Under the pieces are notes generated by a model. The model was not told where the DNA came from. It made no database searches and worked only from the letters and a program-made list of their open reading frames with translations. Below are positions 2,836 through 17,475 of a stretch of 64,000 nt of DNA, one piece after another. The first letter of the stretch is position 1. Each line of letters opens with the position of its first letter. The translations under genes were made by a program, and so were the position numbers. Location: assembly GCF_004135735.1 (NCBI RefSeq), contig NZ_CP012670.1, positions 5,162,501-5,226,500 of the forward strand, given 5' to 3'. Source of the DNA: Sorangium cellulosum. GTDB lineage: Bacteria; Myxococcota_A; Polyangia; Polyangiales; Polyangiaceae.

Positions 2836-4758
<1,923 letters not shown>

Positions 4759-4996
4759 TGGCGTACCCTCCTTCAACCGTGTGCGACGAGCGCGCTCTGC
4801 AAGCCGCGGGCCCCGCACGCCATTTTCCGTAGTCTGGCCGGAACGCGGCCTCCGGGCCGCCCCGAACCTCCTCGAGCCCGCTCGCCCCGGCGAGGTCGCG
4901 CGCACGCGCTGCGCGCCGCGGCACGGCCTGCGCCGCGGCGACGGCCTGCGCCGCGGCGTCATGCCGAGGCGCACGTCGCCCGCGCTCGGATGCCAT

Positions 4997-5029: not shown

Positions 5030-6532
5030 TCACTCCGCCCGCGCGTGGAGCGACGCCTTCACCGGGCCGTCCCCGACCGTCGCAAGGACGCGCTCCACCA
5101 CCGGCGCATGCAGCGCGAGGAGCCGGGACGGCGCGACGCCCAGGGTCACGATCAGCGCCAGGATCGACAGCAGGGCGGCCCGCTCCCGGAACAGGAGCGA
5201 CTCGATCGCCGCGCCGCTCGCCCGGCCCCGCGGGATCGGGCCCAGGAAGGTGCGCTGGAACGCGCGGAACATCGTGATCCCGTTGAGCGCCGTCGCGCCC
5301 AGCATCATCACCGCGAGCGCCGGGCTCACGTGCAGGACGCCGTGCAGCAAGAGATCCTCGCCGATGAACGTCAGCGCGCCCGGGAACCCGATCGCCGCGA
5401 ACGCGAGCAGGAAGAAGAAGGCGGCCATGCGGGGCGTCTTCGCCACGAGGCCGCCGAGCTCCCTCATGTCCGCCGTGCCCGTCCGCGCCTCGATCGCCCA
5501 GACGACCATCGCCACCCCGATGACCGCGATCGACAGGCCGAAGCTCTGCACCAGCGCGCCGCTCACGCTCTGCGGGTTCATCGACGCGATCCCGAGGAGG
5601 ATGAGCCCCTTCTGGCTCGCCACGAGGTACCCGATCATCCGGCGTAGATCCGTCTGCGTGAACGCGAGGACCGAGCCGTGCAGCGCGCTGAAGAGCCCCA
5701 GCGCGGCGAGGATCGGCATGTCCTCGGCGCACGCCTCGGGCAGGAGCGGCGCCGCCACGCGGACCAGCACGCAGACGCCGACCTGCATCTCGGCGAGCAG
5801 GACGGTCACGCCGATCGGCCCCCGCTCGAGCAGCACCGGCAGCCAGCCGTGGAACGGCACGGCGGCCATGCGCATCAGCACCGAGATGCCGACGAGCGCG
5901 AGCAGCGGCGACTGCCACGCCTCGGGGATGCCGACGCGGGCGATCTCCTGGAGGTCGAACGGCAGCGCCGCGCCGCGGCGCGCGGCGAGCGCGGCCATGG
6001 CGCCGATCGCGAGGACGAGCGGCGCCGCGCCGCCGATCAGGAAGATGCGGTAGGTGCGCCGGAGGAGCTGGTCGGACGCGCCCTCCCTGGCGACGAGGCG
6101 CGCGCCCGGCAGGAGCGCGGCGACCCACGCCACGGCGAGCACCGCGAGGTCCGACGCGCAGTAGACGCCGAGGATGGCGCTCGCCGTGGCGAGCAGCGCC
6201 GCGAGGTTCGGCCGGTCGAGCGCGGCGCGCGGGCCCGCGGCGATCAGGGCGAGCAGCATGAAGCCGAGCAGCGGCAGCAGGGAGGCGCTGAAGCCGTCGA
6301 GCCCGAGGCGGAGGCGCACGCCGAGGGGCGGCACCGCGGGGCCGATCGCGTCGAGGGCGACGCCGCCCCCTGCGCGGAACAGCGCGAGCGCCACGAGCGA
6401 GAGCAGCAGCGTGAGCGCCGCCCCGGCGAGGGCCACGCGGCGCGCGGCCTCGTCGCCGCGCGCGCGGGAGGCGGCCAGCGCGGCGAGCGCGGGCGCGAGG
6501 ACGAGCGCCGAGAGGAGCAGGAACATCGTCAT
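5030..6532 (-). CDS. Divergent antiporter-like subunit of the dab cluster
   Basis: A 500-aa polytopic membrane protein of the proton-conducting Mrp/NuoL-M-N family (PF00361), with about 13-14 hydrophobic segments. It is closest in layout to NuoM/NuoN. Two residues normally essential for proton translocation are changed. The TM5 glutamate of the W-E motif is V here ([11 protein letters not shown], about residue 135), and the TM7 lysine before the PVHTWLP-type motif is R ([13 protein letters not shown], about residue 220). The start is ATG at 6532, overlapping the dabB stop as ATGA. The upstream open frame to 7294 is a shadow of dabB. It is probably an accessory subunit of the DabA/DabB carbon transporter; whether it conducts protons is doubtful. 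Assignment to the complex is inference from operon position. Confidence 0.8.
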
Positions 6533-7992
6533 GACCGCGCCCCCTTCGCGTCGACCGTGGAGGCCGCCACGCCCACGGAGGCCGGGGCGCCCGCGGTGGC
6601 CGCCGCGCCCGCGCGCTCGCCGTGAGCGCGGCCGTCGTCGCGCGCGGCGCCAGGGTGGCGCTCGGCGACGCCGCTCAGCGCCGCGACCCAGCGGCGCTCG
6701 AACCGGTCGACCGCCTGACCGAGGCGCACGAGCGGCGCCGCGATGAACCGCTGCTGCAGCGCCTCCAGGTGGAAGCGCTCGAGGGCGAGCCAGTACGCGC
6801 GCCGCACCAGCGGCGCCGGCAGCACCCGGCCGGCGATCCCGAGGAGCGGCAGCGGGTCGCCGGCGTGCGCGGCCCGGATCTCCTGCGCGTCGCGGAGCGC
6901 CGAGGGGGAGCGCAGCATCTGCAGGCACCTGAGGCACGCGTGCGCGAACAGGTGCACGAGCGCGAGCCAGTAGAGCCCGAGCCCGATCTCCACGAACATG
7001 ATCCCGACCTGCGACATCGTCGCGTACGCGAGCGCGCTCTTCACGTCGGCCTGCACGCGGCCCACCAGGGTCCCGTGGACGGCCGTGAGCGCCCCCACGA
7101 CGACGACCACCGCGCTCGCCGCGGGCGAGCGCTCGAGCACGGGCGCCGCGCGCAGCATCAGGTACACGCCCGCGTGGATCGAGATCGCGCCGTAGAACAG
7201 CGCGCTCGAGGGCGTCGGCCCCTCCATCGCCCGCGGCAGCCAGCTGCCGAGGGGGAACTGCGCGCTCTTGCCCATCGCGGCGAGGAACAGGCACAGCGCG
7301 AGCGCCGTCGCCCCGGGGGCGCCGATCGCGGCGGCCGTCCCGGGCCAGGCGGCGCCGCCGAACACCTCGCCGAAGTGGGTGGAGCCGGCGATCTGGTGCA
7401 TCAGCACCACGCCCACGAGCAGCCCCACGTCGCAGAGCCGGTAGGTGACGTAGACCCTGAGCGCCGCCCGCGCCGGCGCCGCGCGCTCGTGAAAGAAGGC
7501 CACGAGGAGCACGCTCGTCACGCCGACGATCTCCCAGCCCGCGAAGAGCAGGTCGATGCTCCCCGCGGACACGAGCGCCAGCATGCCCGTCGAGAACAGC
7601 GCGAGGAGCAGGAAGAACCGCGCGAACCCCGCCTCGCGGTGCAGGTAGGCGACCGAGAACCTGCCGGCGACGAGCGCGATCAGCGAGACGAGCACCATCA
7701 TCGTCGCCGACAGCCGGTCGACGAGCAGGATGACGTCGAACGAGTAGCCCGACGCCTCGAACCAGTGCCCGAGCTCCACGGGGAGGAAGGCGTAGGGCGC
7801 CGCGACGGACGAGCCCCAGACGACGAGCGAGGCGGCGAGCGAGATCGCGAGCGAGGACTGCACGACGCCGGACACCACGCGCTCGCTCGGCGTGCGCAGG
7901 AGGAGCAGGAAGGCGCCGAGCGCGGCGAAGGCCACCGCCGGCGAGAGCACGGCGAGCGCGGCGAGCTTGCCGAGGACGAGATCAGGCAGCAT
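6529..7992 (-). CDS. dabB: DabB-type proton-conducting membrane subunit
   Basis: A 487-aa NuoL/NdhF-like membrane protein that in DAB systems anchors DabA and is thought to couple ion flux to CO2 hydration and uptake. It keeps the canonical charged residues: Glu in FAGWEIVG (about 151) and Lys in KSAQFPLGSWLP (about 241). The segment FYGAISIHAGVYLMLR is the form typical of DabB-like proteins, rather than the HAATMVTAG of true NuoL. It overlaps dabA by 11 nt and the next gene by 4 nt, so the three are translationally coupled. Length is typical for DabB. Confidence 0.87.
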   Translation of the reverse strand: MLPDLVLGKLAALAVLSPAVAFAALGAFLLLLRTPSERVVSGVVQSSLAISLAASLVVWGSSVAAPYAFLPVELGHWFEASGYSFDVILLVDRLSATMMVLVSLIALVAGRFSVAYLHREAGFARFFLLLALFSTGMLALVSAGSIDLLFAGWEIVGVTSVLLVAFFHERAAPARAALRVYVTYRLCDVGLLVGVVLMHQIAGSTHFGEVFGGAAWPGTAAAIGAPGATALALCLFLAAMGKSAQFPLGSWLPRAMEGPTPSSALFYGAISIHAGVYLMLRAAPVLERSPAASAVVVVVGALTAVHGTLVGRVQADVKSALAYATMSQVGIMFVEIGLGLYWLALVHLFAHACLRCLQMLRSPSALRDAQEIRAAHAGDPLPLLGIAGRVLPAPLVRRAYWLALERFHLEALQQRFIAAPLVRLGQAVDRFERRWVAALSGVAERHPGAARDDGRAHGERAGAAATAGAPASVGVAASTVDAKGARS

Positions 7993-10900
7993 GTTCGGCG
8001 ATCTCCAGCGAGGCCCCGAGGGGCGCGGGGCGGACGACGGCGGGCGGCACGAAGTCGCGCTTGCCCGCGTACCAGTCGGAGGACCGCGCCACCGTGGGCA
8101 GGGGGCGCTCCGGGGGCGAAAACGGCGCGAAGGCGCCGCGGGCGAAGTGCTCGATCCGGCCCGTCGCCGGATCGACGCAGGCGAGCTGGATCCAGCCGTT
8201 GAAGATGAGCTCGCGGAGCGACGGCTGCCGCGCGCAGATGGCCGCGGCCGTCTCCGTGCTCGCCTCCACGACGGTGAGCATGCGCACCGGCTCGTGGATC
8301 TCGATCATCTGCTTCGGCAGGCCGGTGCGCAGATCGCTCCGCGCGCCGTCCATGACCCCGAGCAGCGAGACGAGGTTGTGGGGGAGCTTGGTCCCCGCGC
8401 CGAAGCGGAGGTTGTCGACGCGGGAGAAGTAGTACTCCAGGTTGATCCCCGCCCCGACCGGCCCGGCGGAGAGCAGGACGCGCTCGAGGACCGCGCCGGT
8501 GGGGTCCTGGGTCGGGTCGTACGACGTGAGGAACACCCGGCGGTCGAGGAAGAGCCCGCGGGTGAGCTCGCGGCGGCCGATCACGCAGACGGCGTTGGTC
8601 GCGTGCCCGAGCTCGGGCCGGGCCTCGCTGAGGTCCACGGCGCGCGCCTCGACGTGCGCGAGCGCCTGCTCGGGGCTCAGGCGCTCCGGGGCCGACGCGA
8701 AGCGGCGGCAGCGCTCGTGCGCGTGCCGCTTGCGCGCCTCGACGAGCGCGCCCTTGAGCGCGGCGATCTCGCCGCGGTGCGACGGCGGCGCGAGGATCTC
8801 GTCGTAGAAGACGATCTCCTCGGTGGTCGTGTTGTTCATCCCGCCGAGGAAGAAGGTCCCCTCCGGGATGTCGATGCCGCGCGCGCGGAGCAGCGCGCGC
8901 ACCTCCCGGTCGTTGGCCATGGCGGCGAACAGCCGCGCGTTCGGGCCGCCGTGCCGGCCGCCGCACGCGCCGCAGTCGTACGCGGAGTGGTGCGGGTTGT
9001 TCACGCTGCTCGCGCCGTGGCCGAGCACCACCACGAGCGGCGCGAAGCGCCGGGTGAGCCCCATGATCTCGAGCGTCGCCGCCACCATCGCGGCCTCCTC
9101 GGCGGCCGCGAGGGGCGCGCCCCCGCCGCGCGCCTGCGCCCCCTCCTCGTGCGGGCTGTGGAGCTGGGTCGGCACCGCCGGCAGGAGGCGCCGCGCGATC
9201 GCGCCGCGCAGCCGCGCGTACGCCCGCGGGAAGAGGGTGCGCCCGACGAGCGGGATCGTGGAGAACAGCCCGAGGGTCGGCGTGAGCAAGAGGCCGCGCG
9301 AGAGGGTCCGGGTCCCGTGCCCGAGCGCGTGGACGAAGCGCGCCCAGCGCCTGCGGCGCGCCTTCCGGACGAGCCCGAAGCCCTCGACGCGGGGTCGCTC
9401 GACGATCTCGTGCGCCGGCACGACGTTGACGGGGCAGAGGCTCGCGTGGCCGGCGTCGTCGAGCCCGCGGTACCGGATCGGCACGCCGAAGAACCCGGCG
9501 ATGCCGAACGTCTCGTGCCGCGGGGAGAGCTCCTCGAAGTGCCGCCGGAGCCCCTCGCAGCGGTCGTCGATGCAGAGCGCGACCTGGAACCGCGGATCGG
9601 AGACCGCGCGCTCGCTCGCAGGGCGGCGCAGGTTCGCCGCGATGCCGTGCAGCACCTCGACCCGGTGGTGGTGCTCGTAGGCCTCGTGGAGCAGGCGCCG
9701 CCGCGCCATCTCGTCGAGCCCCTCGAGCACCTCGAGCGCCCAGACGCGATCCTCCACCGGGAGCGGATGGATCTGGGCGACCGACAGCCCCGCGAGCTGC
9801 GCGAGCTGGAACAGGCGGAAGGGCCTGTCGCCGTCGGGCGAGCGCGGCGGCGGCTCGACGGGCTTCGCGGCGCGCCGGGCGTGCTCGACGAGCCCCGCGA
9901 GGGGCCCCTTGTACCCCAGCTTCCGGCGCGCCACGTGGCGCAGCGCGTACCGGGCGAGGGTCAGGCGCACGGCGAGGTAGTCGACCAGCGACGCGGGCGG
10001 CGCGCCCTCGGGCCGGTCGCCCGGCGTGCGCTCGAGGCGGTGGACCATGCCGGCCCAGCCCGGCAGCTCGAGCAGCACGCGCGTCACGTAGCCCTCCCAC
10101 CGGTCCTCGGCGACGCCGAGCTCGCGCAGGGCGGCGACGGCGACGGCGGCGGGCGGCGTGCTCGCCCCGAGCGCGCGGAGCTCCGCGTCGAGCCCGGCGA
10201 AGCACGCCTCGGCCGGCCTCGACCCGTCGAGCACGAGGCCGCGGAACGCGCGGAAGAGCCCCTGCGCGCGGTCCGGCATCGCCCAGTGCGCGATCCCCTC
10301 GTCGAGGTAGGCGCCGAGGAGCCGGATGAAGAGCGGATCGATGAGCTCGGCCGGGTCCTCCCCCGTGAGCGCGAGCAGGAGATCGCGGTGCGATCGATCG
10401 ACGCCCACGCGATCGATGAGCGGCGGCGCGGCGGGCGTCGCGGGCGGCAGCGGCACGCTGCAGCAGGCGTCCCAGAGGGCGAGCGCGGCGCGGGACTCCG
10501 GGTCGCGGCCGCCCAGGTCGACGAGGCGCGCGGCGGCGTCGGGGCGCTCGGCCAGCCAGCGCTCGGTACCGACGATGAGGCGGCGGTACGGCTTGGGCGG
10601 GAGGTCGGGCCGGAGCCTGCGCGTCTCTCCCGCCTCGGCGATGCGCCACCGGAGCCCCGCCTCGGTGACGCCCTCGACGCGGAAGCGCAGCGCGAGGCGC
10701 TCGATCTCGTTGCGTGACAGCGGGCCCCGGCGCTCGTCCGGCCTCTCGGCGAAGCGCTCGGCGAGCGCCGCCTCGATGTCCTGGTCGTCGATCCGGCCCG
10801 ACGCGATGTGCGCGCGGTACTCCGCCTCGGGGAGGTACGGCTCTGCCTCGAACAGCGCGCTCGCCGCGGCGAGCGCGTCGTGGAACGGCAGGTGCTGGAA

Positions 10901-11038
10901 CGCGTGCAGCGTGTTGTGGTGGACGAACACGCCGATCGGCCCCTGCGCGGGCAGGAAGTGACCGGCGTGCTGGAGGAGGGTGCGCAGGCGCTCTTCTGGA
11001 GCTTCGTCTGCGCTGGACGTCGAACTTGGCTCGTTCAT
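7982..11038 (-). CDS. dabA: DabA inorganic-carbon transporter subunit (DUF2309)
   Basis: Large cytoplasmic-face subunit (PF10070) with a buried beta-carbonic-anhydrase-like zinc site. It is believed to hydrate CO2 vectorially so that bicarbonate accumulates. The proposed zinc ligands and catalytic Asp are present: C and D in CIDDRCE (about 487), H in VLGHGAS (about 673) and C in DCGACGG (about 688). The family start motif VFVHHNTLHAFQHLPF is near the N terminus. From ATG 11038 the protein is 1018 aa. An ATG at 11089 would add 17 residues, with GAAGG placed too close to be a good ribosome site. It overlaps dabB by 11 nt and lies about 110 nt after the SulP gene. The host has no visible carbon-fixation genes here, so a role in feeding carboxylases is likelier than autotrophy. 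Confidence 0.9.
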   Translation of the reverse strand: MNEPSSTSSADEAPEERLRTLLQHAGHFLPAQGPIGVFVHHNTLHAFQHLPFHDALAAASALFEAEPYLPEAEYRAHIASGRIDDQDIEAALAERFAERPDERRGPLSRNEIERLALRFRVEGVTEAGLRWRIAEAGETRRLRPDLPPKPYRRLIVGTERWLAERPDAAARLVDLGGRDPESRAALALWDACCSVPLPPATPAAPPLIDRVGVDRSHRDLLLALTGEDPAELIDPLFIRLLGAYLDEGIAHWAMPDRAQGLFRAFRGLVLDGSRPAEACFAGLDAELRALGASTPPAAVAVAALRELGVAEDRWEGYVTRVLLELPGWAGMVHRLERTPGDRPEGAPPASLVDYLAVRLTLARYALRHVARRKLGYKGPLAGLVEHARRAAKPVEPPPRSPDGDRPFRLFQLAQLAGLSVAQIHPLPVEDRVWALEVLEGLDEMARRRLLHEAYEHHHRVEVLHGIAANLRRPASERAVSDPRFQVALCIDDRCEGLRRHFEELSPRHETFGIAGFFGVPIRYRGLDDAGHASLCPVNVVPAHEIVERPRVEGFGLVRKARRRRWARFVHALGHGTRTLSRGLLLTPTLGLFSTIPLVGRTLFPRAYARLRGAIARRLLPAVPTQLHSPHEEGAQARGGGAPLAAAEEAAMVAATLEIMGLTRRFAPLVVVLGHGASSVNNPHHSAYDCGACGGRHGGPNARLFAAMANDREVRALLRARGIDIPEGTFFLGGMNNTTTEEIVFYDEILAPPSHRGEIAALKGALVEARKRHAHERCRRFASAPERLSPEQALAHVEARAVDLSEARPELGHATNAVCVIGRRELTRGLFLDRRVFLTSYDPTQDPTGAVLERVLLSAGPVGAGINLEYYFSRVDNLRFGAGTKLPHNLVSLLGVMDGARSDLRTGLPKQMIEIHEPVRMLTVVEASTETAAAICARQPSLRELIFNGWIQLACVDPATGRIEHFARGAFAPFSPPERPLPTVARSSDWYAGKRDFVPPAVVRPAPLGASLEIAEHAA

Positions 11039-11145
11039 TTCAATCGTGGAGTGGTAGTATCGTCTCAAATCTGCGGCGCGCACGCGCATCCTTCGCGCGT
11101 CTCGCCATCTTTCACGTCACGTGCCTCACACCCCGCCGTGCGGGC

Positions 11146-12786
11146 TCAACGGATCACCACGGGCGCGAGGACGACCTTCTTCCTCGCGGAGAGCGGGTGC
11201 GACGACAGCGGGCCGTGGTCTTCGAGGCCCGAGAGCGTCAGCGTCCGCCCCTTGCGCTCGAGGGAGGCCTTGAGATCGTGCAGGTTGGCCATGACCGTGT
11301 GATCGACCAGGCGGGTGTCGGAGAAGTCGATGTCGATGACGGAGGCGCCCGGGTGCCGCGCGAGCCTCCGCTTGATCGAGAGGTAATTGCTGAAGACGGC
11401 GGCCTGCTTGACGCGCAGCACGAGCCGCTCGCCGTCGACGCGCTCCTCGATGTCGGGCCGGAAGAGGCTGCGGATCGGCGCGCCGTGGAGCACGTGGATG
11501 AACATCTCCACCGCGATGCCGGCCGCGACGCCCACGAGCAGATCGGTCGCGATGGTGATCACGGCGGTGGCGACGAAGACCACGAGCTGCTCCTTGCCGA
11601 TGCGGAACGTGTGCACGAACTCCCTGGGAGACGCGAGGCGGACGCCCGTGAAGACGAGCATCGCGGCCAGCGCGGCCAGCGGGATCCTGTGGATGAGCCC
11701 CGGCGCGAAGGCGACGAAGACCAGGAGGAACGCGCCGTGGAAGAAGTTCGAGAGCCGGCTCTTCGCGCCGTATCCGATGTTGGCGGAGCTGCGGACGATC
11801 TCCGAGATCATGGGCAGCCCGCCGAGCAGGCCCGCGGCGAGGTTGCCGGCGCCGGTGGCGAGCAGGTCCTTGTCGAGATCGGCGTTGCGCCTCTCGGGAT
11901 CGAGGGAGTTGACCGCCTTCGCGGACAGCAGCGACTCGATGCTCCCCACCAGGGCGAACATCACGACATACTTGAGGGACGCGGCCGTGGTGACCTGGCT
12001 GAAGTCCGGCAAGGCGATCGCCTGAACCAGGCTCCCCGGGAGGCTGACGAGGAACTTCGGCCCGACCGTGTAGATCGAGTCCGTCATCGAGAAGGTGTAC
12101 GTGTGCCTGTGCTCGAGGTCGAAGGCGAGCGCGAGCGGCATCGCGGCCGCGAGCACCAGGAGCGGCGCGGGGATCTTCTGCATCCATCGCCCTCTCCGGG
12201 CCAGCAACGGATAACCGAACAGGAGGACGAGAGACAGGACGCCTATCAGGGCGATCGCGGGGTTCAGCCGGAGGGCGCTCGCCGGGATCTCCAGGAGCAG
12301 GGGGAGCGGCTCCTTGGCCGTCGGGGAGACGCCTAGGAGCGTGTGGACCTGCTTCGAGCAGATGATGATCCCGATGGCCGCGAGCATGCCGTGCACCACC
12401 GAGGAGGGGAAGAAGTCGCCGAGGGTGCCGGCGCGCGCGAGCGCGAAGGCGATCTGCACCACGGCGGCGACGACGATGCAGGCGAGCGCGCGGCGGTAGC
12501 CCGTCGCGTTGTCCCCGCCGCCGAGCTCCTGCACCGCGCCGAGCGCGATGACGATGAGCCCCGCTGCCGGGCCTTTGATGGTGAGCCGCGCGCTGCCGAG
12601 CCAGGTGGCGATCACGCCGCCGACGATGGCGGTGAGCACGCCGGAGATGGGGGGGAATCCGCTCGCCATGGCGATGCCAAGGGAGAGCGGGAGAGCTATC
12701 AAGAAGACGAGGAATCCCGAGACGAGATCGCTCTTCCACGTTGATGGTGCCGGTTCTGGTGGCTCCGGCATGTTCGTCATGGACAT
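11146..12786 (-). CDS. SulP-family anion transporter with STAS domain
   Basis: A 546-aa inner-membrane transporter of the SulP/SLC26 family. The transmembrane domain covers about 20-400, with the family pattern around IALPLSLGIAMASGFPP and GLIVIALGAV. A shortened STAS domain follows at about 430-540. SulP proteins carry sulfate, bicarbonate (BicA) or other anions. Its place directly upstream of dabA on the same strand favours bicarbonate, which is inference. The start is ATG at 12786, with GAGGG about 10 nt upstream. The frame stays open 50 codons further but reads as low-complexity basic sequence. A second ATG at 12780 is possible. A 5-bp hairpin (CCCGC/GCGGG) just after the stop may partly attenuate readthrough into dabA. 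Confidence 0.88.
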   Translation of the reverse strand: MSMTNMPEPPEPAPSTWKSDLVSGFLVFLIALPLSLGIAMASGFPPISGVLTAIVGGVIATWLGSARLTIKGPAAGLIVIALGAVQELGGGDNATGYRRALACIVVAAVVQIAFALARAGTLGDFFPSSVVHGMLAAIGIIICSKQVHTLLGVSPTAKEPLPLLLEIPASALRLNPAIALIGVLSLVLLFGYPLLARRGRWMQKIPAPLLVLAAAMPLALAFDLEHRHTYTFSMTDSIYTVGPKFLVSLPGSLVQAIALPDFSQVTTAASLKYVVMFALVGSIESLLSAKAVNSLDPERRNADLDKDLLATGAGNLAAGLLGGLPMISEIVRSSANIGYGAKSRLSNFFHGAFLLVFVAFAPGLIHRIPLAALAAMLVFTGVRLASPREFVHTFRIGKEQLVVFVATAVITIATDLLVGVAAGIAVEMFIHVLHGAPIRSLFRPDIEERVDGERLVLRVKQAAVFSNYLSIKRRLARHPGASVIDIDFSDTRLVDHTVMANLHDLKASLERKGRTLTLSGLEDHGPLSSHPLSARKKVVLAPVVIR

Positions 12787-13250
12787 GGTGGTATTCGACC
12801 CTCGGATACGCGGGCAGGACGCCGTCCTGCAGTCTCCGTCCCGACCGCTGGTGCGTTGTCGTCCAGGTTCGTTCCAGGCTCGTCGCTCACGTGGCCAGCG
12901 CGCCAGCGAGCCTCCTGTTGCGGCTCGCCTCCACACCGGTCCCTCCGCGGCGGACCTCGGACGAACTTGGGCGACGCGTTACTAGGAAACGGGGTGTTTC
13001 ATTTCCAGTACCCGGCCACACGATTTTTTAGAATGTCGACCGGACGCTCCATGCTGGAAAATTACAAACCAAACGGATCTGCATGCTGTGCCAGCGCCGC
13101 CGTCGAAGCCGGGCTTGAGCGGCGCCGCGCCGGGCAGCGGGATCGGCACGCTGCCGAGGAGCTAGCCGGGGGCGCTCCCCAGGCTCGACAGGATGACGTC
13201 GATCTCCGAGAACGCCTGAGCGCGTCGCCCTCACCGCCGATCACGCCCAC
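12787..13250. other. Gene-free region upstream of sulP
   Basis: I see no gene here. A relatively A/T-rich stretch at 12990-13075 is the likely site of the sulP promoter on the minus strand, but I cannot fix -35/-10 boxes. On the minus strand near 13159-13215 a short open segment ending in EIDVILSSLGSAPG-stop looks coding-like. It is interrupted upstream by a stop and may be the relict 3' end of a gene. Confidence 0.45.
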
Positions 13251-13370
13251 GAGGTCGCCGCGCTCGCACCTCGTGAGATCGCCGCGCTCGCACCTCGTGA
13301 GATCGCCGCGCTCGCACCTCGTGAGATCGCCGCGCTCGCACCTCGTGAGGTCGCCGCGCTCGCACCTCGT
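13251..13370. repeat. Five tandem 24-bp repeats
   Basis: Units at 13251, 13275, 13299, 13323 and 13347 are GAGRTCGCCGCGCTCGCACC plus TCGT. They differ only at the fourth base, where outer copies have G and inner copies A. No spacers separate the units, so this is not a CRISPR array. On the minus strand the units are open in frame (CERGDLTR per unit). They lie 61 nt past the Uma2 gene stop and may be the remains of a coding repeat. Confidence 0.9.
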
Positions 13371-13431
13371 CTCGTCGGGGACGACGGCGAGCCCTCCGCC
13401 CCGGCGCGTGCCCCCCACCGCCGCGGACGCT

Positions 13432-14187
13432 TCAGGACCCGTCGCTGTCCGGATCGATGCCCATCGCGCGCAGCCGCGCAGCGAGCCGGCGCGCGCGCGC
13501 CTCGGCGTCGGTCGCGCGCGCCTCGGCGTCGGTCGCGCGCGCCTCGGCGTCGGTCGCGCGCTCCGCGCCCGTCGGCACCACCGCGCCGTCCGCGGTCCGC
13601 CACCGCAGCCAGGTCGTGTGGATCCCCTCGAATGTGCCCTCCCAGAGGACGAGCCCGAGCCCCGCGAGCCCGAACCACGGCTCCGTCGGCACATAGAACC
13701 TGCCGTGAAGCTCGAAGGCGTGCAGCGGCTGCTCGCCCTGGTGATGTGCGGGATCGAAGACGACGTAATAGGGGATCCCCGCCCGCGCGTAGCGCGCCCG
13801 CTTCTCGCCGAGCTCCCTGCCCTCCCGGTTCGAGACGATCTCGACGACGATCTCGGGCGCCTTGCCGAACTCCCAGAAGAAGTACGTCCGGTTCTTCTTT
13901 GCCCAGAAGTCCTCGCGGACCTGGACATCCAGGCTCAGGAAGACATCGGGGACGATCGGCGGCTCGTGCAGCGCCGGGAACAACCCGACGTTGGCCGCCG
14001 CGACGAACGGGCGCGCCTGGCCGTCCTCGCCGGGCGGGGGGCCGGACCAGGAGCTGTAGAGCGGCTCCGTGAGCAGGCGCTGCTGCTTCTCCGAAGGCAG
14101 GTTGTCCACGGGGGTCTCGTCCTCGGTCACGATGCCGGAGATGTCGGGCTCCTCGGGCTGCAGGAGGACGGCGGTCGAGGACCTCAT
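13432..14187 (-). CDS. Uma2-family protein with heptad-repeat tail
   Basis: A 251-aa protein of the Uma2 family (PF05685, PD-(D/E)XK restriction-endonuclease-like fold). The core shows VPDVFLSLDV followed by PEIVVEIVSN and the basic GEKRARYARAG segment. This is the acidic/basic spacing of the nuclease active site, at about residues 80-130. Biological role of the family is not settled. The C terminus carries three exact ATDAEAR heptads encoded by a 21-bp DNA repeat (13493-13555), followed by a basic helix, so it is probably a coiled coil. The start is ATG at 14187; no convincing ribosome site is visible. A second, shorter Uma2 gene is at 56789-57379. No methylase or partner is nearby. Confidence 0.82.
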   Translation of the reverse strand: MRSSTAVLLQPEEPDISGIVTEDETPVDNLPSEKQQRLLTEPLYSSWSGPPPGEDGQARPFVAAANVGLFPALHEPPIVPDVFLSLDVQVREDFWAKKNRTYFFWEFGKAPEIVVEIVSNREGRELGEKRARYARAGIPYYVVFDPAHHQGEQPLHAFELHGRFYVPTEPWFGLAGLGLVLWEGTFEGIHTTWLRWRTADGAVVPTGAERATDAEARATDAEARATDAEARARRLAARLRAMGIDPDSDGS

Positions 14188-15206: not shown

Positions 15207-17156
15207 TCAGGTGGGCCCGGAGATCCGCCAGAACCCGATCCTCGCGGCGCCCCGGAGGTCCGGGCCGACTGGGCCCTTGCCCCAGAAGTGATCATCGTAG
15301 TTGGGGATCGTCCAGCCCGGGCCGTACACCCCCATCACCGCGTAGATCACCTTGTCATCCGGCTGGACCTCGATCGCCGTCGTCGCCCACGCCTGCCGCA
15401 GCGGCGCCGGGCTCGCCTCGTCGAGCAGGCGGCCCGCGAACAGCGCCCCCTCGGTCGTGTCGTCGTACGAGATGGTCGCATAGCCGAGCAGGAGGTGCAG
15501 GCCGTTGAACGCGCCCGACCAGCGGAAGCGCCACGCGCCCGCGTCGTCCTGGAGCGGGCCGCAGGCGGCGACCACCATCCATTCCAGGTTGGAGTTCCCC
15601 CAGTGGGCGTCGCCGAAGTGCAGGAAGCGGTCGCTCATGTTGCTGCAGAACATGAACCCGGAGCCGTTCGCGTGCCCCGTGTAGAACGTGAGATCGACGG
15701 AGTCCACGAAGGACGCGTCCTGGCCCCCCATCACCGGATCCTTGAAGTCGATCTCCCACGCGCGCTGATCACCCCAGTTGAACCGGGGCGTCACGCCGCC
15801 CGCCTCGAAGCGCTTCAGCAGCCCGTCGACGTTCGCCGCCGAGTGATCGAGGCCGCCGCAGCGCCCGACCCACTCGGCGCCGACCACGCCGCGCCCGTCC
15901 TCGTCCGGCGCGGGGACAGGCGCGCGCGGCGCCTCGCCCCCCGGCGCCGCGCGGAGCACCGGGATCGTGCGCGAGGCGGTCGCCACCAGGCCGTTCGCGT
16001 CCGTGACGTACAGCGAGAGCGTCTCCGTCTGTCCGCGGACGAGAGGGCCGCTGTCCGGGAGGGCCATCGGATACCGCACCTCCGCGGCGAGGGGGTCCGC
16101 GCCGTCGAGCGAGCGCGCTGACGATACCCACCTGTACGTGTACGGCGCAGCGCCCCCGGCGACGATCGCCTCCGCGGTGACGGTCTCGCCATCCATGCGC
16201 ACGGCGACGGCGGCGCGCGGAGCGTCCTTGACGGCCGGCACGACCGCCCTGCGCACGTCCACGACCTCACCGCCGGAGAACCGCCGGGCGCTGCATATAT
16301 AATGAGGCAGGATCCGCGTCACCTCGCGGGAGAGCGGCGGCGCGTAATACACGAGCTCCGGCTCGGCCGCGATCTCCGCGCCGCCGCCCAGCGCGCGGGC
16401 GCACAGCGCCGGGGCCTCCGAGGCCGGGACGATCGCGACGTCCTCCCCGCGCTCCAGCTCGCGCCGCGCGTAGATCAGGTGGGTCACGGCGCCCTCGGCG
16501 TCGAACGTGATCCTGACCTTGGCGCCGGGGCCGATCAGCCGTAGTCCCTCCAGCTCGTCGCGGAAGCTCACCTGCGTGTCGAGCTCGGCCCGCGCCCCCC
16601 GCAGCCCCGCGGCGTCGATCGACTCGAAGACGGAGTGGCCCACGGCGATATCGCGTCCGACCGGCAGGCGCGCCGCCTCCAGCGCGGCCCACGCCCGCGC
16701 CGCCGCGTCCTGCTCGGGGAGGACGCGGATCGCCGAGAGCGCCTCGAAATCCACGGCGTCATCGCCGGCCACCGTGGCGAAGCCGCGCTCGTCGCGAAAT
16801 CCGGGCGCGGGCGGGGCGACCTTCCTCGTCGGCAGGCGCTGGAACCGCGCGCGGTCGAGGTATCGAATCGCGCCATCCGGCGCGAGCGCGGCGCCGCCCC
16901 GAAAACCCTCCCGCGCGAGCCCCAGCGCGCCGGCGAGCGCGGCCGCCCGCCCGGCGTCGGCGCTGCGGCCGATCACGCGGTAGCTGGGCAAAAAGCTCGC
17001 TTCTCGGGCGAGGGGCGAGCGATCGCCCCCCGTGCCGGACACACGGCGATCGGCGCTCTCCTGTGGATCCTCGCGCGCGTGGCCGCCGCTGCACGCCGTG
17101 GCTCCGGACGCCACGAGGAAGAAGATTCCAAACACCTCAACCGGCGATCTCTTCAT
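15207..17156 (-). CDS. Large lipoprotein, possible DUF6345 domain
   Basis: A 649-aa exported protein. The signal peptide MKRSPVEVFGIFFLVASGATAC ends at a Cys that fits lipoprotein processing. A strong AGGGGGG ribosome site precedes ATG 17156. The N-terminal half (about 30-330) is not recognised. Around 340-440 there is a PKD/Ig-like beta segment (TYRWVSSARSLDGADP, LSLYVTDANGLVATASRT). The C-terminal 220 residues contain NWGDQRAWEIDFKD, DLTFYTGHANGSGFMF and WMVVAACGPLQ. These resemble DUF6345-type proteins with a GH motif reminiscent of caspase-fold hydrolases; this is a tentative resemblance from memory. No transport or regulatory partner is adjacent. Function unknown. Confidence 0.75.
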   Translation of the reverse strand: MKRSPVEVFGIFFLVASGATACSGGHAREDPQESADRRVSGTGGDRSPLAREASFLPSYRVIGRSADAGRAAALAGALGLAREGFRGGAALAPDGAIRYLDRARFQRLPTRKVAPPAPGFRDERGFATVAGDDAVDFEALSAIRVLPEQDAAARAWAALEAARLPVGRDIAVGHSVFESIDAAGLRGARAELDTQVSFRDELEGLRLIGPGAKVRITFDAEGAVTHLIYARRELERGEDVAIVPASEAPALCARALGGGAEIAAEPELVYYAPPLSREVTRILPHYICSARRFSGGEVVDVRRAVVPAVKDAPRAAVAVRMDGETVTAEAIVAGGAAPYTYRWVSSARSLDGADPLAAEVRYPMALPDSGPLVRGQTETLSLYVTDANGLVATASRTIPVLRAAPGGEAPRAPVPAPDEDGRGVVGAEWVGRCGGLDHSAANVDGLLKRFEAGGVTPRFNWGDQRAWEIDFKDPVMGGQDASFVDSVDLTFYTGHANGSGFMFCSNMSDRFLHFGDAHWGNSNLEWMVVAACGPLQDDAGAWRFRWSGAFNGLHLLLGYATISYDDTTEGALFAGRLLDEASPAPLRQAWATTAIEVQPDDKVIYAVMGVYGPGWTIPNYDDHFWGKGPVGPDLRGAARIGFWRISGPT

Positions 17157-17475
17157 GAAGTCCCCCCTTTTCTTCGGTTGCGGCGTGGTCCGGCGCGCAA
17201 CTCCGGAGGATCGATCTCGCAGGGAGCTTGCGCGCGGCGCTCCCGGCCCGCGACGCGCGACCGGCCCGTTGCACGACCCAAGCCACCCCGGGGCCCGCGG
17301 TGCGGCGCGGACGCAGCGCGCTCGCGCGGCGCGGGGGTGGCCCGCGAGGGGCGCGGCCACGCCGGCGTCCCGCCCCGGGCCCGGTGCGCGATCGCCGCGG
17401 GACACCGGCGCCATCCCCCTTCCGCCGGGCGAGATTGACCGGCTCCCGTCGGGCTCCTAGGCTGCCGCGCACTCC
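17157..17475. other. Divergent intergenic region, nothing identified
   Basis: This spacer separates the minus-strand lipoprotein from the plus-strand isoprenoid operon, so it should carry both promoters. Apart from the AGGGGGG ribosome site (near 17161-17167) and general GC richness I see no repeat, RNA gene or convincing promoter box. Confidence 0.5.

Follow-up and report, generated by a model that had tools for sequence, protein, structure and literature searches.

The window, a 64,000-nucleotide stretch of the Sorangium cellulosum genome, carries a gene cluster that we read, with a little more confidence than doubt, as encoding a SulP transporter plus a three-subunit DIC-accumulating complex (DAC) whose third subunit would serve as end-cap to a train of modules in which protons drive CO2 hydration. 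Judged from its genes, the complex seems to trap CO2 as bicarbonate using the proton gradient. Such a gene neighbourhood has been described before. New within the literature searched are a modular family that takes in the window's two-antiporter form and a four-antiporter one, the loss of the TM5 glutamate from exactly one subunit per readable cluster, the loss of TM12–15 from DabB and, in DabA, a histidine for Leu658 of DabA2 and a finger in which Glu444 is not conserved. Since the same catalytic subunit occurs naturally in a series with one, two and four antiporter-like modules, the proton cost per CO2 becomes open to experiment, and with it the question of how a proton gradient is converted into bicarbonate. 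The series may also teach how complex I modules hand protons or charge to a neighbour, and the putative cap and the His-for-Leu change lend themselves to single-residue tests.

Gene layout and family membership

The original prediction described four minus-strand genes (SulP, DabA, a DabB-like gene and a second PF00361 protein) with 4- and 11-nt overlaps among them. The coordinates confirm this arrangement, with 11 nt shared by the DabA and DabB genes and 4 nt (ATGA) by DabB and the third gene:

11146..12786, minus strand: SulP-family (SLC26-like) anion transporter with a weak STAS domain (PF00916; alternative starts at 12780 and 12771)
7982..11089, minus strand: DabA, zinc beta-carbonic-anhydrase-like subunit, long form, 1035 aa (PF10070)
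9233..9385, minus strand: membrane "finger" of DabA (AF2 helices at about 569–593 and 596–619)
6529..7992, minus strand: DabB (NuoL-like), 11 TM helices (PF00361/PF00662)
5030..6532, minus strand: third subunit, NuoM-like, full length (PF00361)
2836..4974, minus strand: neighbouring GTP-dependent PEP carboxykinase (PEPCK; NF003253, 1009.3 bits)

The operon structure rests on the overlaps, because a sigma-70 and terminator scan of the locus gave no signal exceeding shuffled sequence. A defence-system reading was rejected, as PADLOC returned no match; the SulP query for this search and for that of PDB relatives began 6 codons inside the gene.

The cluster belongs to the DAC/DAB family: its PF10070 protein has the Cys2His zinc site and the Asp-Arg dyad, and a NuoL-like PF00361 partner adjoins it. 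A neighbourhood of SulP, YbcC/DabA, NuoL and NuoM was already reported by COGNAT (Biol Direct 2017, PMC5700660), and gene order assigns the cluster to its clade C, in which ybcC/DabA likewise lies upstream of a NuoL homolog together with NuoM and SulP genes. That report described clade C as a new energy-converting complex and proposed that an exergonic reaction powers pumping outward, unlike the direction proposed here; its section on these operons names no carbonic anhydrase and contains no analysis of a cap or of TM loss (PMC5700660). DAB1 of Halothiobacillus neapolitanus, for its part, includes an interstitial protein as a third membrane component (PMC7714395, PMC13144422). Both precedents contradict the statement that each known DAB system consists of a single DabA and a single DabB, and we rejected it as a rule (PMC5700660, PMC7714395, PMC13144422). 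What stands of the proposed variant is that an extra PF00361 subunit accompanies a DAC/DAB-like complex, and that the genome gives no RuBisCO (PF00016) match. The literature searched contained no experimental work on any clade C system.

The cluster also differs from the better-described systems. DAB2 of H. neapolitanus (9rd0) shares the zinc site, the Asp-Arg dyad, a beta-CA-like DabA and a NuoL-like DabB that carries TM7 Lys and TM11 His, but has a single antiporter of 15 TM helices without TM5 Glu, a finger Glu444 and Leu658 (PMC13144422). In their place, the window has two PF00361 genes, one for an 11-TM DabB that keeps TM5 Glu and one for its NuoM-like partner, and a DabA with His829. DAB1 and a plasmid-borne, DAB1-like cluster in Nitrobacter hamburgensis (L178) resemble the cluster in their long DabA and third membrane protein. 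Nevertheless, the genes in Nitrobacter run antiporter, 253-aa membrane protein (without a Pfam match at E<=1), DabA, PII, and its DabA keeps Leu658 and Glu444; the window's order departs from this arrangement, in which a small membrane protein separates DabB from DabA and PII follows. Cyanobacterial NDH-1MS (NdhD3/NdhF3/CupA) has the NDH-1M redox part, whereas no NDH-1M redox or connecting genes lie between or beside the four genes, and the genome's own nuo genes, conceivable partners all the same, are >20 kb away at the nearest. Staphylococcal MpsAB, by its description, is a DabA/DabB-family system of a heterotroph, as here, but is set apart by its proposed Na+ coupling (PMC13144422).

Locus types among relatives

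A gene-order search of the kind the original prediction proposed found the third gene beside dabA in 47 loci besides the window, rather than absent from all relatives, the outcome named there as refuting. With the window, DabA followed by both antiporter genes occurs in 48 distinct loci, a two-antiporter class defined by the presence of the third gene; this order is not due to chance. Another 54 loci, 41 of them readable in full, have a four-antiporter form (M-DabA-L-M-M). Two exceptions with 6–7 kb of downstream sequence, L171 (a single antiporter gene) and L042 (one antiporter gene upstream of DabA, none downstream), both have a His-type DabA of the two-antiporter class.

The antiporter tree places the first downstream, L-like proteins in one clade of 105 (0.991) beside the single-type DabB (22, 0.967). 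The window's third gene belongs to a 47-member clade (0.999); joined by P+2 and P+3 from the four-antiporter loci, this clade makes up a larger one of 145 members (0.995). P-1 is sister to NuoM (0.961). The tree sample included three duplicate loci (L119, L138, L149) and typed the contig-cut four-antiporter loci L047, L056 and L063 as two-antiporter. In the residue and helix counts below, the duplicates were left out, these three loci were counted as four-antiporter and L116 as short-type.

Antiporter-like subunits and the candidate end-cap

The gene predicted to be DabB-like encodes a NuoL-like PF00361 partner but not a full DabB or NuoL. It matches PF00361 (150.9 bits) and PF00662 (47.5 bits), its best curated relatives are NuoL models under their cut-off, and the Foldseek matches listed for its AF2 model (mean pLDDT 87.0, pTM 0.86) are complex I/NDH chains. 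Hydropathy shows 11 TM helices, with amphipathic helices in place of the absent TM12–15. No TM helix follows TM11 in 44/47 two-antiporter DabBs, one follows in 41/49 four-antiporter proteins and three to four in all 22 single-type proteins. The proton-path residues are present in the window (TM5 Glu154, TM7 Lys242 and TM11 His/His/Arg), and two-antiporter DabBs retain TM7 Lys in 48/48 and TM11 His (H338) in 46/48.

The third gene (PF00361, 118.5 bits) has its best curated relative in TIGR01972 NuoM (227.2 bits, under the 263.8 cut-off). Aligned to E. coli NuoM, the window's protein has TM5 Glu replaced by Val, TM7 Lys by Arg and TM8 Lys by Gln, and retains TM12 Glu. The same pattern runs through the class: TM5 Glu is absent in 45/45 (L161 and L170 among them by an alignment gap), TM7 Lys is Arg in 44/45 and TM8 Lys is found in 0/45. 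TM5 Glu, TM7 Lys and TM8 Lys matter in complex I, and their loss speaks against a second working proton channel that would bring the cost to two protons per CO2. On the other hand, TM12 Glu is retained in 35/45 third subunits and the following residue is acidic in 43/45; three TM helices follow TM11 in 38/44, and the four-antiporter relatives carry two canonical extra modules, P+3 and P-1. COGNAT, moreover, proposed that membrane subunit number approximates ion number (PMC5700660). A second channel is an unlikely reading. We infer instead that the third protein caps or gates the train through a proton path that has degenerated, and does not pump independently; TM12 Glu would be needless for a purely inert cap.

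Exactly one antiporter per readable cluster is without TM5 Glu, the residue contacting a neighbour. It is missing from the only DabB of the single type (22/22), always from the third gene of the two-antiporter type (45/45, with L161 and L170 by the gap) and always from P+2, the second downstream subunit, of the four-antiporter type (41/41 loci readable in full). In the latter, P+3 has TM5 Glu, TM7 Lys and TM8 Lys in 46/46 each and TM12 Glu in 44/46, and P-1 has all four residues in 48/48. These cap counts would be the many descendants of few events, probably two losses, rather than independent cases. Nor is the loss unique to caps, since TM5 Glu is present in 13/15 own-genome Nuo/Mrp controls, which have Lys in 15/15, and absent from the other 2/15. 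In the DabA-Mrp clusters L180 and L181 all three TM5 Glu are present, an exception that we explain, post hoc, by MrpC-type neighbours.

If the NuoM-like gene were a mere neighbour encoding a separate antiporter, its losses would not be expected to complement those of DabB (TM5 Glu in one, TM12–15 in the other). The conserved gene order, the overlap in the window and two natural one-frame L-M fusions (L005, which passes through an Ala-Arg-Arg repeat, and L048, from a MAG of low coverage, with a frame break close to its end) also argue for a joint complex. The complex is known here from genes, and L171 and L042 have a DabA of the same class without the third gene, but we find a separate antiporter hardly credible.

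DAB2 provides a template for assembly, as the DabA2 finger takes the place of NuoL TM12 and DabB2 has no TM5 Glu; with DabB2, the substitution I151E cuts growth by half (PMC13144422). By analogy, DabA would hydrate CO2 to bicarbonate as protons flow in, and its finger would dock at the open C-terminal side of DabB, where TM12–15 are gone. The third protein would dock on the opposite, TM5/TM7 side and end the train, its TM12 Glu/Asp facing DabB TM5 Glu and TM7 Lys; having no further neighbour, it could have lost its own TM5 Glu. The four-antiporter relatives would have added two fully equipped NuoM-like modules and retained the cap. A broader generalization is tentative, and we would sooner doubt it: DACs may be modular proton-driven carbonic anhydrases, with DabA at the distal end of a train that counts one, two or four modules of the complex I type and is closed by a single subunit without TM5 Glu. 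Inserting canonical modules between DabA and this cap would then change the protons per CO2, and clade C would be marked by His for Leu/Gln in the active site and a basic rather than acidic finger.

DabA chemistry, SulP and host carbon metabolism

DabA matches PF10070 with 822 bits over profile positions 2–747 and DabA2 (9rd0_A) with a phmmer E-value of 7.8e-67. Its AF2 model (mean pLDDT 81.8, pTM 0.84) has the beta-CA 8thm as best PDB fold match (E 9.1e-3, prob 0.94), with a TM-score of only 0.16 on the query. The zinc ligands had been predicted to be intact, and alignment bears this out: C351, D353, R355, H524 and C539 of DabA2 align to C506, D508, R510, H691 and C706, giving C506/H691/C706 as zinc ligands and D508/R510 as the dyad. 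The zinc site is intact in 48/48 two-antiporter, 53/53 four-antiporter and 23/23 single-type proteins.

Full conservation of the zinc ligands and dyad, together with the NuoL-path TM7 Lys and TM11 His kept by DabB, tells against a different chemistry for clade C DabA, which, instead of hydrating CO2 one way, would team up with SulP in Na+/HCO3- symport or in homeostasis of pH and bicarbonate. We consider this alternative improbable, even though several features agree with it. H829, which aligns with the active-site Leu658 of DabA2, is invariant in 34/34 aligned sequences, and His occupies this position in 48/48 two-antiporter and 53/53 four-antiporter DabAs versus 0/23 of the single type. Although alignment of the finger is uncertain, the column of Glu444, a residue essential in DAB2, holds Pro604 here and is acidic in 0/48 two-type and 14/53 four-type DabAs, and column 617, Arg617 here, is Arg/Lys in 32/48 and 51/53, respectively, versus Asp/Glu in 20/23 of the short type. 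In the host genome beta-CA has two matches and RuBisCO none, and MpsAB has been proposed as a Na+/HCO3- symporter (PMC13144422). Because the Glu444 column is not conserved and Leu658 is replaced by His, coupling and chemistry may differ from DAB2 even under the CO2-hydrating reading that we prefer.

The original prediction also linked the cluster to anaplerosis through PEPCK. The gene does adjoin the cluster, on the same strand, and SulP (>200 bits) lies near 33/48 two-antiporter loci. Yet PEPCK, a mainly gluconeogenic enzyme, is in the flank of just 2/48 two-antiporter loci, the window and L006, in a count where 20/48 loci have <6 kb of sequence downstream of DabA. The link therefore has little comparative support; PEPCK is probably not part of the system, we rejected it as a component, and we give almost no weight to an anaplerotic CO2-feeding unit of SulP, DAC and PEPCK. 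The genome also carries PEP carboxylase.

SulP is a frequent companion of two-antiporter loci, versus 5/54 four-antiporter and 0/23 single-type loci. It matches PF00916 with 209.9 bits and falls under the cut-off of every curated model compared (DauA 177.9, sulP 172.6 and BicA 125.4 bits); its identification as BicA was rejected against the NF050096 cut-off of 880. Its relatives in the PDB include 5da0 and 6ki1. Among the 25 plasmid rows listed, matches cover at most 66% of DabA.

The gene cluster and its host genome

The window carries four minus-strand genes, encoding SulP, DabA, a NuoL-like protein (DabB) and a NuoM-like protein (the third gene). Their coordinates and Pfam matches bear out this part of the original prediction, including overlaps of 11 nt and 4 nt between adjacent genes:

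11146-12786, minus strand, SulP (PF00916, 209.9 bits, Pfam)
7982-11089, minus strand, DabA (PF10070, 822.1 bits, Pfam)
6529-7992, minus strand, NuoL-like gene, DabB (PF00361, 150.9 bits, and PF00662, 47.5 bits, Pfam)
5030-6532, minus strand, NuoM-like gene, the third gene (PF00361, 118.5 bits, Pfam)

The host genome, a single contig of 11.26 Mb, has one match to PF10070 and 18 to PF00361. It also contains PEP carboxylase and two beta-CA (PF00484) matches; a profile search of this genome for RuBisCO (PF00016) returned no match. Two tandem arrays lie upstream of the SulP gene, both inside long reading frames: a 24-bp unit repeated 5.0 times (13251-13370) and a 21-bp unit repeated 3.3 times (13492-13561).

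Published work contradicts the earlier assumption that one DabA with one DabB is the rule. In the COGNAT study, ybcC (COG3002, now DabA) upstream of a nuoL homolog is often accompanied by genes for SulP and NuoM, and the authors propose that the count of membrane subunits mirrors the ions moved (PMC5700660). Furthermore, the DAB1 construct of Flamholz et al. combined dabAB1 with one interstitial PF00361 gene (PMC7714395, available text), whose product Lo et al. term a small membrane protein (PMC13144422, available text). The literature searched, which took in passages of PMC9080137, PMC10880623 and PMC11338360 and few subscription papers or preprints, contained neither experiments on the NuoM-bearing type nor analyses of its residues.

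Cluster types and neighborhoods

A scan of the genome collection seeded with the window's DabA recovered 65 loci, the closest from Sorangium (76-85% identity). PF10070 was present in 73 of 377 Myxococcota genomes; the 93 listed matches comprised the window, 78 taken with flanks and 14 fragments left out. DabA and PF00361 genes were located by scripts, three duplicates were dropped and three contig-cut loci were reclassified. The final 141 loci, including the window, fell into 48 two-antiporter (DabA, NuoL-like, NuoM-like), 54 four-antiporter, 3 truncated four-antiporter, 23 single (DabB with a short DabA) and 13 unclassified loci, proportions that are not population frequencies because of the seed used. 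Among the 54, 43 have one antiporter gene upstream of DabA (P-1) and at least three downstream, five have at least three downstream with the upstream side outside the sampled stretch, and five are cut by a contig end. Locus L042 (a Methylococcaceae MAG), also among the 54, has an M-like gene upstream of a long His-type DabA (His at the column of DAB2 Leu658) and no PF00361 gene within 7 kb downstream. The unclassified L171 pairs a His-type DabA with a single antiporter gene.

Several loci carry additional genes. A fifth PF00361 gene, apart from the DAC subunits in the tree, follows the four-antiporter cluster in L027 (15489 onward) and L028 (10494 onward). In L017 (Nitrosomonas mobilis), a second DabA-like frame (15832-17265), cut by the locus end, lies just downstream of such a cluster. 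L178 (Nitrobacter hamburgensis plasmid 1) has two adjoining tandem DAB1-like clusters (antiporter, 253-aa membrane protein, DUF2309, PII).

At more than 200 bits to the window's SulP, a SulP gene lies near 33 of the 48 two-antiporter loci (25 have it upstream in the same orientation, 4 have it divergent and 4 downstream), none of the 23 single loci and 5 of the 54 four-antiporter loci, 11 of which had little upstream sequence sampled. Weaker SulP-family matches lie near 6 of the 54. The predicted PEPCK neighbor is indeed present in the window but is not general, as the flanks examined contain it only there and in L006.

A different arrangement occurs in Myxococcota at L101/L180 (G186:C321) and L105/L181 (G348:C267), where SulP-DabA precedes a same-strand Mrp-like operon of small MrpF/G/B/C-like proteins (named by eye) and three PF00361 genes. 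No DabB adjoins DabA, in which position 658 is Leu and the column of DAB2 Glu444 is Asp; all three antiporters keep the TM5 Glu and TM7 Lys.

The third protein among the antiporter subunits

In a FastTree phylogeny of 338 antiporter domains, genes grouped by position in the cluster, although certain inner supports were weak (0.63, 0.17). The first downstream genes (L-like, 105) formed one group beside the single-type DabB. The two-antiporter second genes grouped together (47, support 0.999) and, with the four-antiporter second (P+2) and third (P+3) genes, formed a group of 145 (0.995). P-1 adjoined true NuoM (0.961).

The TM5 Glu (E. coli NuoL E144) follows these positions, in counts that share ancestry: it is present in the L-like proteins (48/48 two-antiporter, 51/52 four-antiporter), P+3 (46/46), P-1 (48/48) and 13 of 15 own-genome Nuo/Mrp proteins, and absent from single DabB (0/22), third genes (0/45) and P+2 (0/50). 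Among fully readable clusters, exactly one subunit lacks it in each (22/22 single, 45/45 two-antiporter, 41/41 four-antiporter, from 23, 48 and 54). We infer that the residue was lost twice, once in single DabB and once in the lineage of P+2 and the third gene, each time from the subunit that would be terminal. We lean toward the third protein being a true subunit that caps a train of antiporters, a putative function. A second working channel, the main rival, seems less likely. Third proteins retain the TM12 Glu in 35 of 45 cases, and none of the 45 has the TM8 Lys found in all P+2 (50/50), P+3 (46/46) and P-1 (48/48). At TM7, Arg occupies the position in 44/45 third genes and 48/50 P+2; Lys is found in 16/22 single DabB and all members of the remaining classes.

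Two fusions hint at one complex, neither strong alone. L005 (Sorangium So0157-2, 10092-13406) joins L-like and NuoM-like domains in a 1105-residue frame through a long Ala-Arg-Arg repeat, and L048 joins them in one frame, broken at its end, by way of a hydrophobic stretch. A further copy in So0157-2, L006, is not fused.

DabB shape and the DabA active site

Hydropathy places no membrane helix past TM11 in 44/47 two-antiporter L-like proteins, one in 41/49 four-antiporter L-like proteins and three or four in 22/22 single DabBs. For the window's DabB, the AF2 model (built on 41 aligned rows; pLDDT 87.0, pTM 0.86) has 11 membrane helices followed by extra helices that no hydropathy peak backs as membrane spans; its 50 listed Foldseek matches are complex I/NDH chains, mostly labeled L, 5, F or l. 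In DAB2, for which Lo et al. provide the structure and reference residues, the DabA finger occupies the place of NuoL TM12 (PMC13144422, available text). In the window's DabB itself this place is empty.

In the AF2 model of the window's DabA (34 rows, pLDDT 81.8), the finger helices span roughly residues 569-593 and 596-619. A beta-CA is the top fold match (E only 9.1e-3), and DAB2 (9rd0) is absent among the 50 matches listed. With the finger alignment uncertain, the Glu444 column holds Glu/Asp in 21/23 short, 0/48 two-antiporter and 14/53 four-antiporter DabAs, and window column 617 holds Asp/Glu in 20/23 short and Arg/Lys in 32/48 two-antiporter and 51/53 four-antiporter DabAs.

The zinc ligands, predicted to be intact in the window, are so there and, with the Asp-Arg dyad, in every aligned DabA (23, 48, 53 and 2 rows). 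In the 141-row DabA tree, 110 of 112 long DabAs from the two- and four-antiporter side form one clade (0.999), divided nearly by type; the Nitrobacter DAB1-like DabA falls outside it and the short type lies across the midpoint root. Leu658 of DabA2 stands in place of the transition-state Gln of beta-CA (PMC13144422, available text). This position is Leu in 23/23 short DabAs and the Nitrobacter protein, and His in 48/48 two-antiporter and 53/53 four-antiporter DabAs (clade C of the YbcC/DabA operons in COGNAT).
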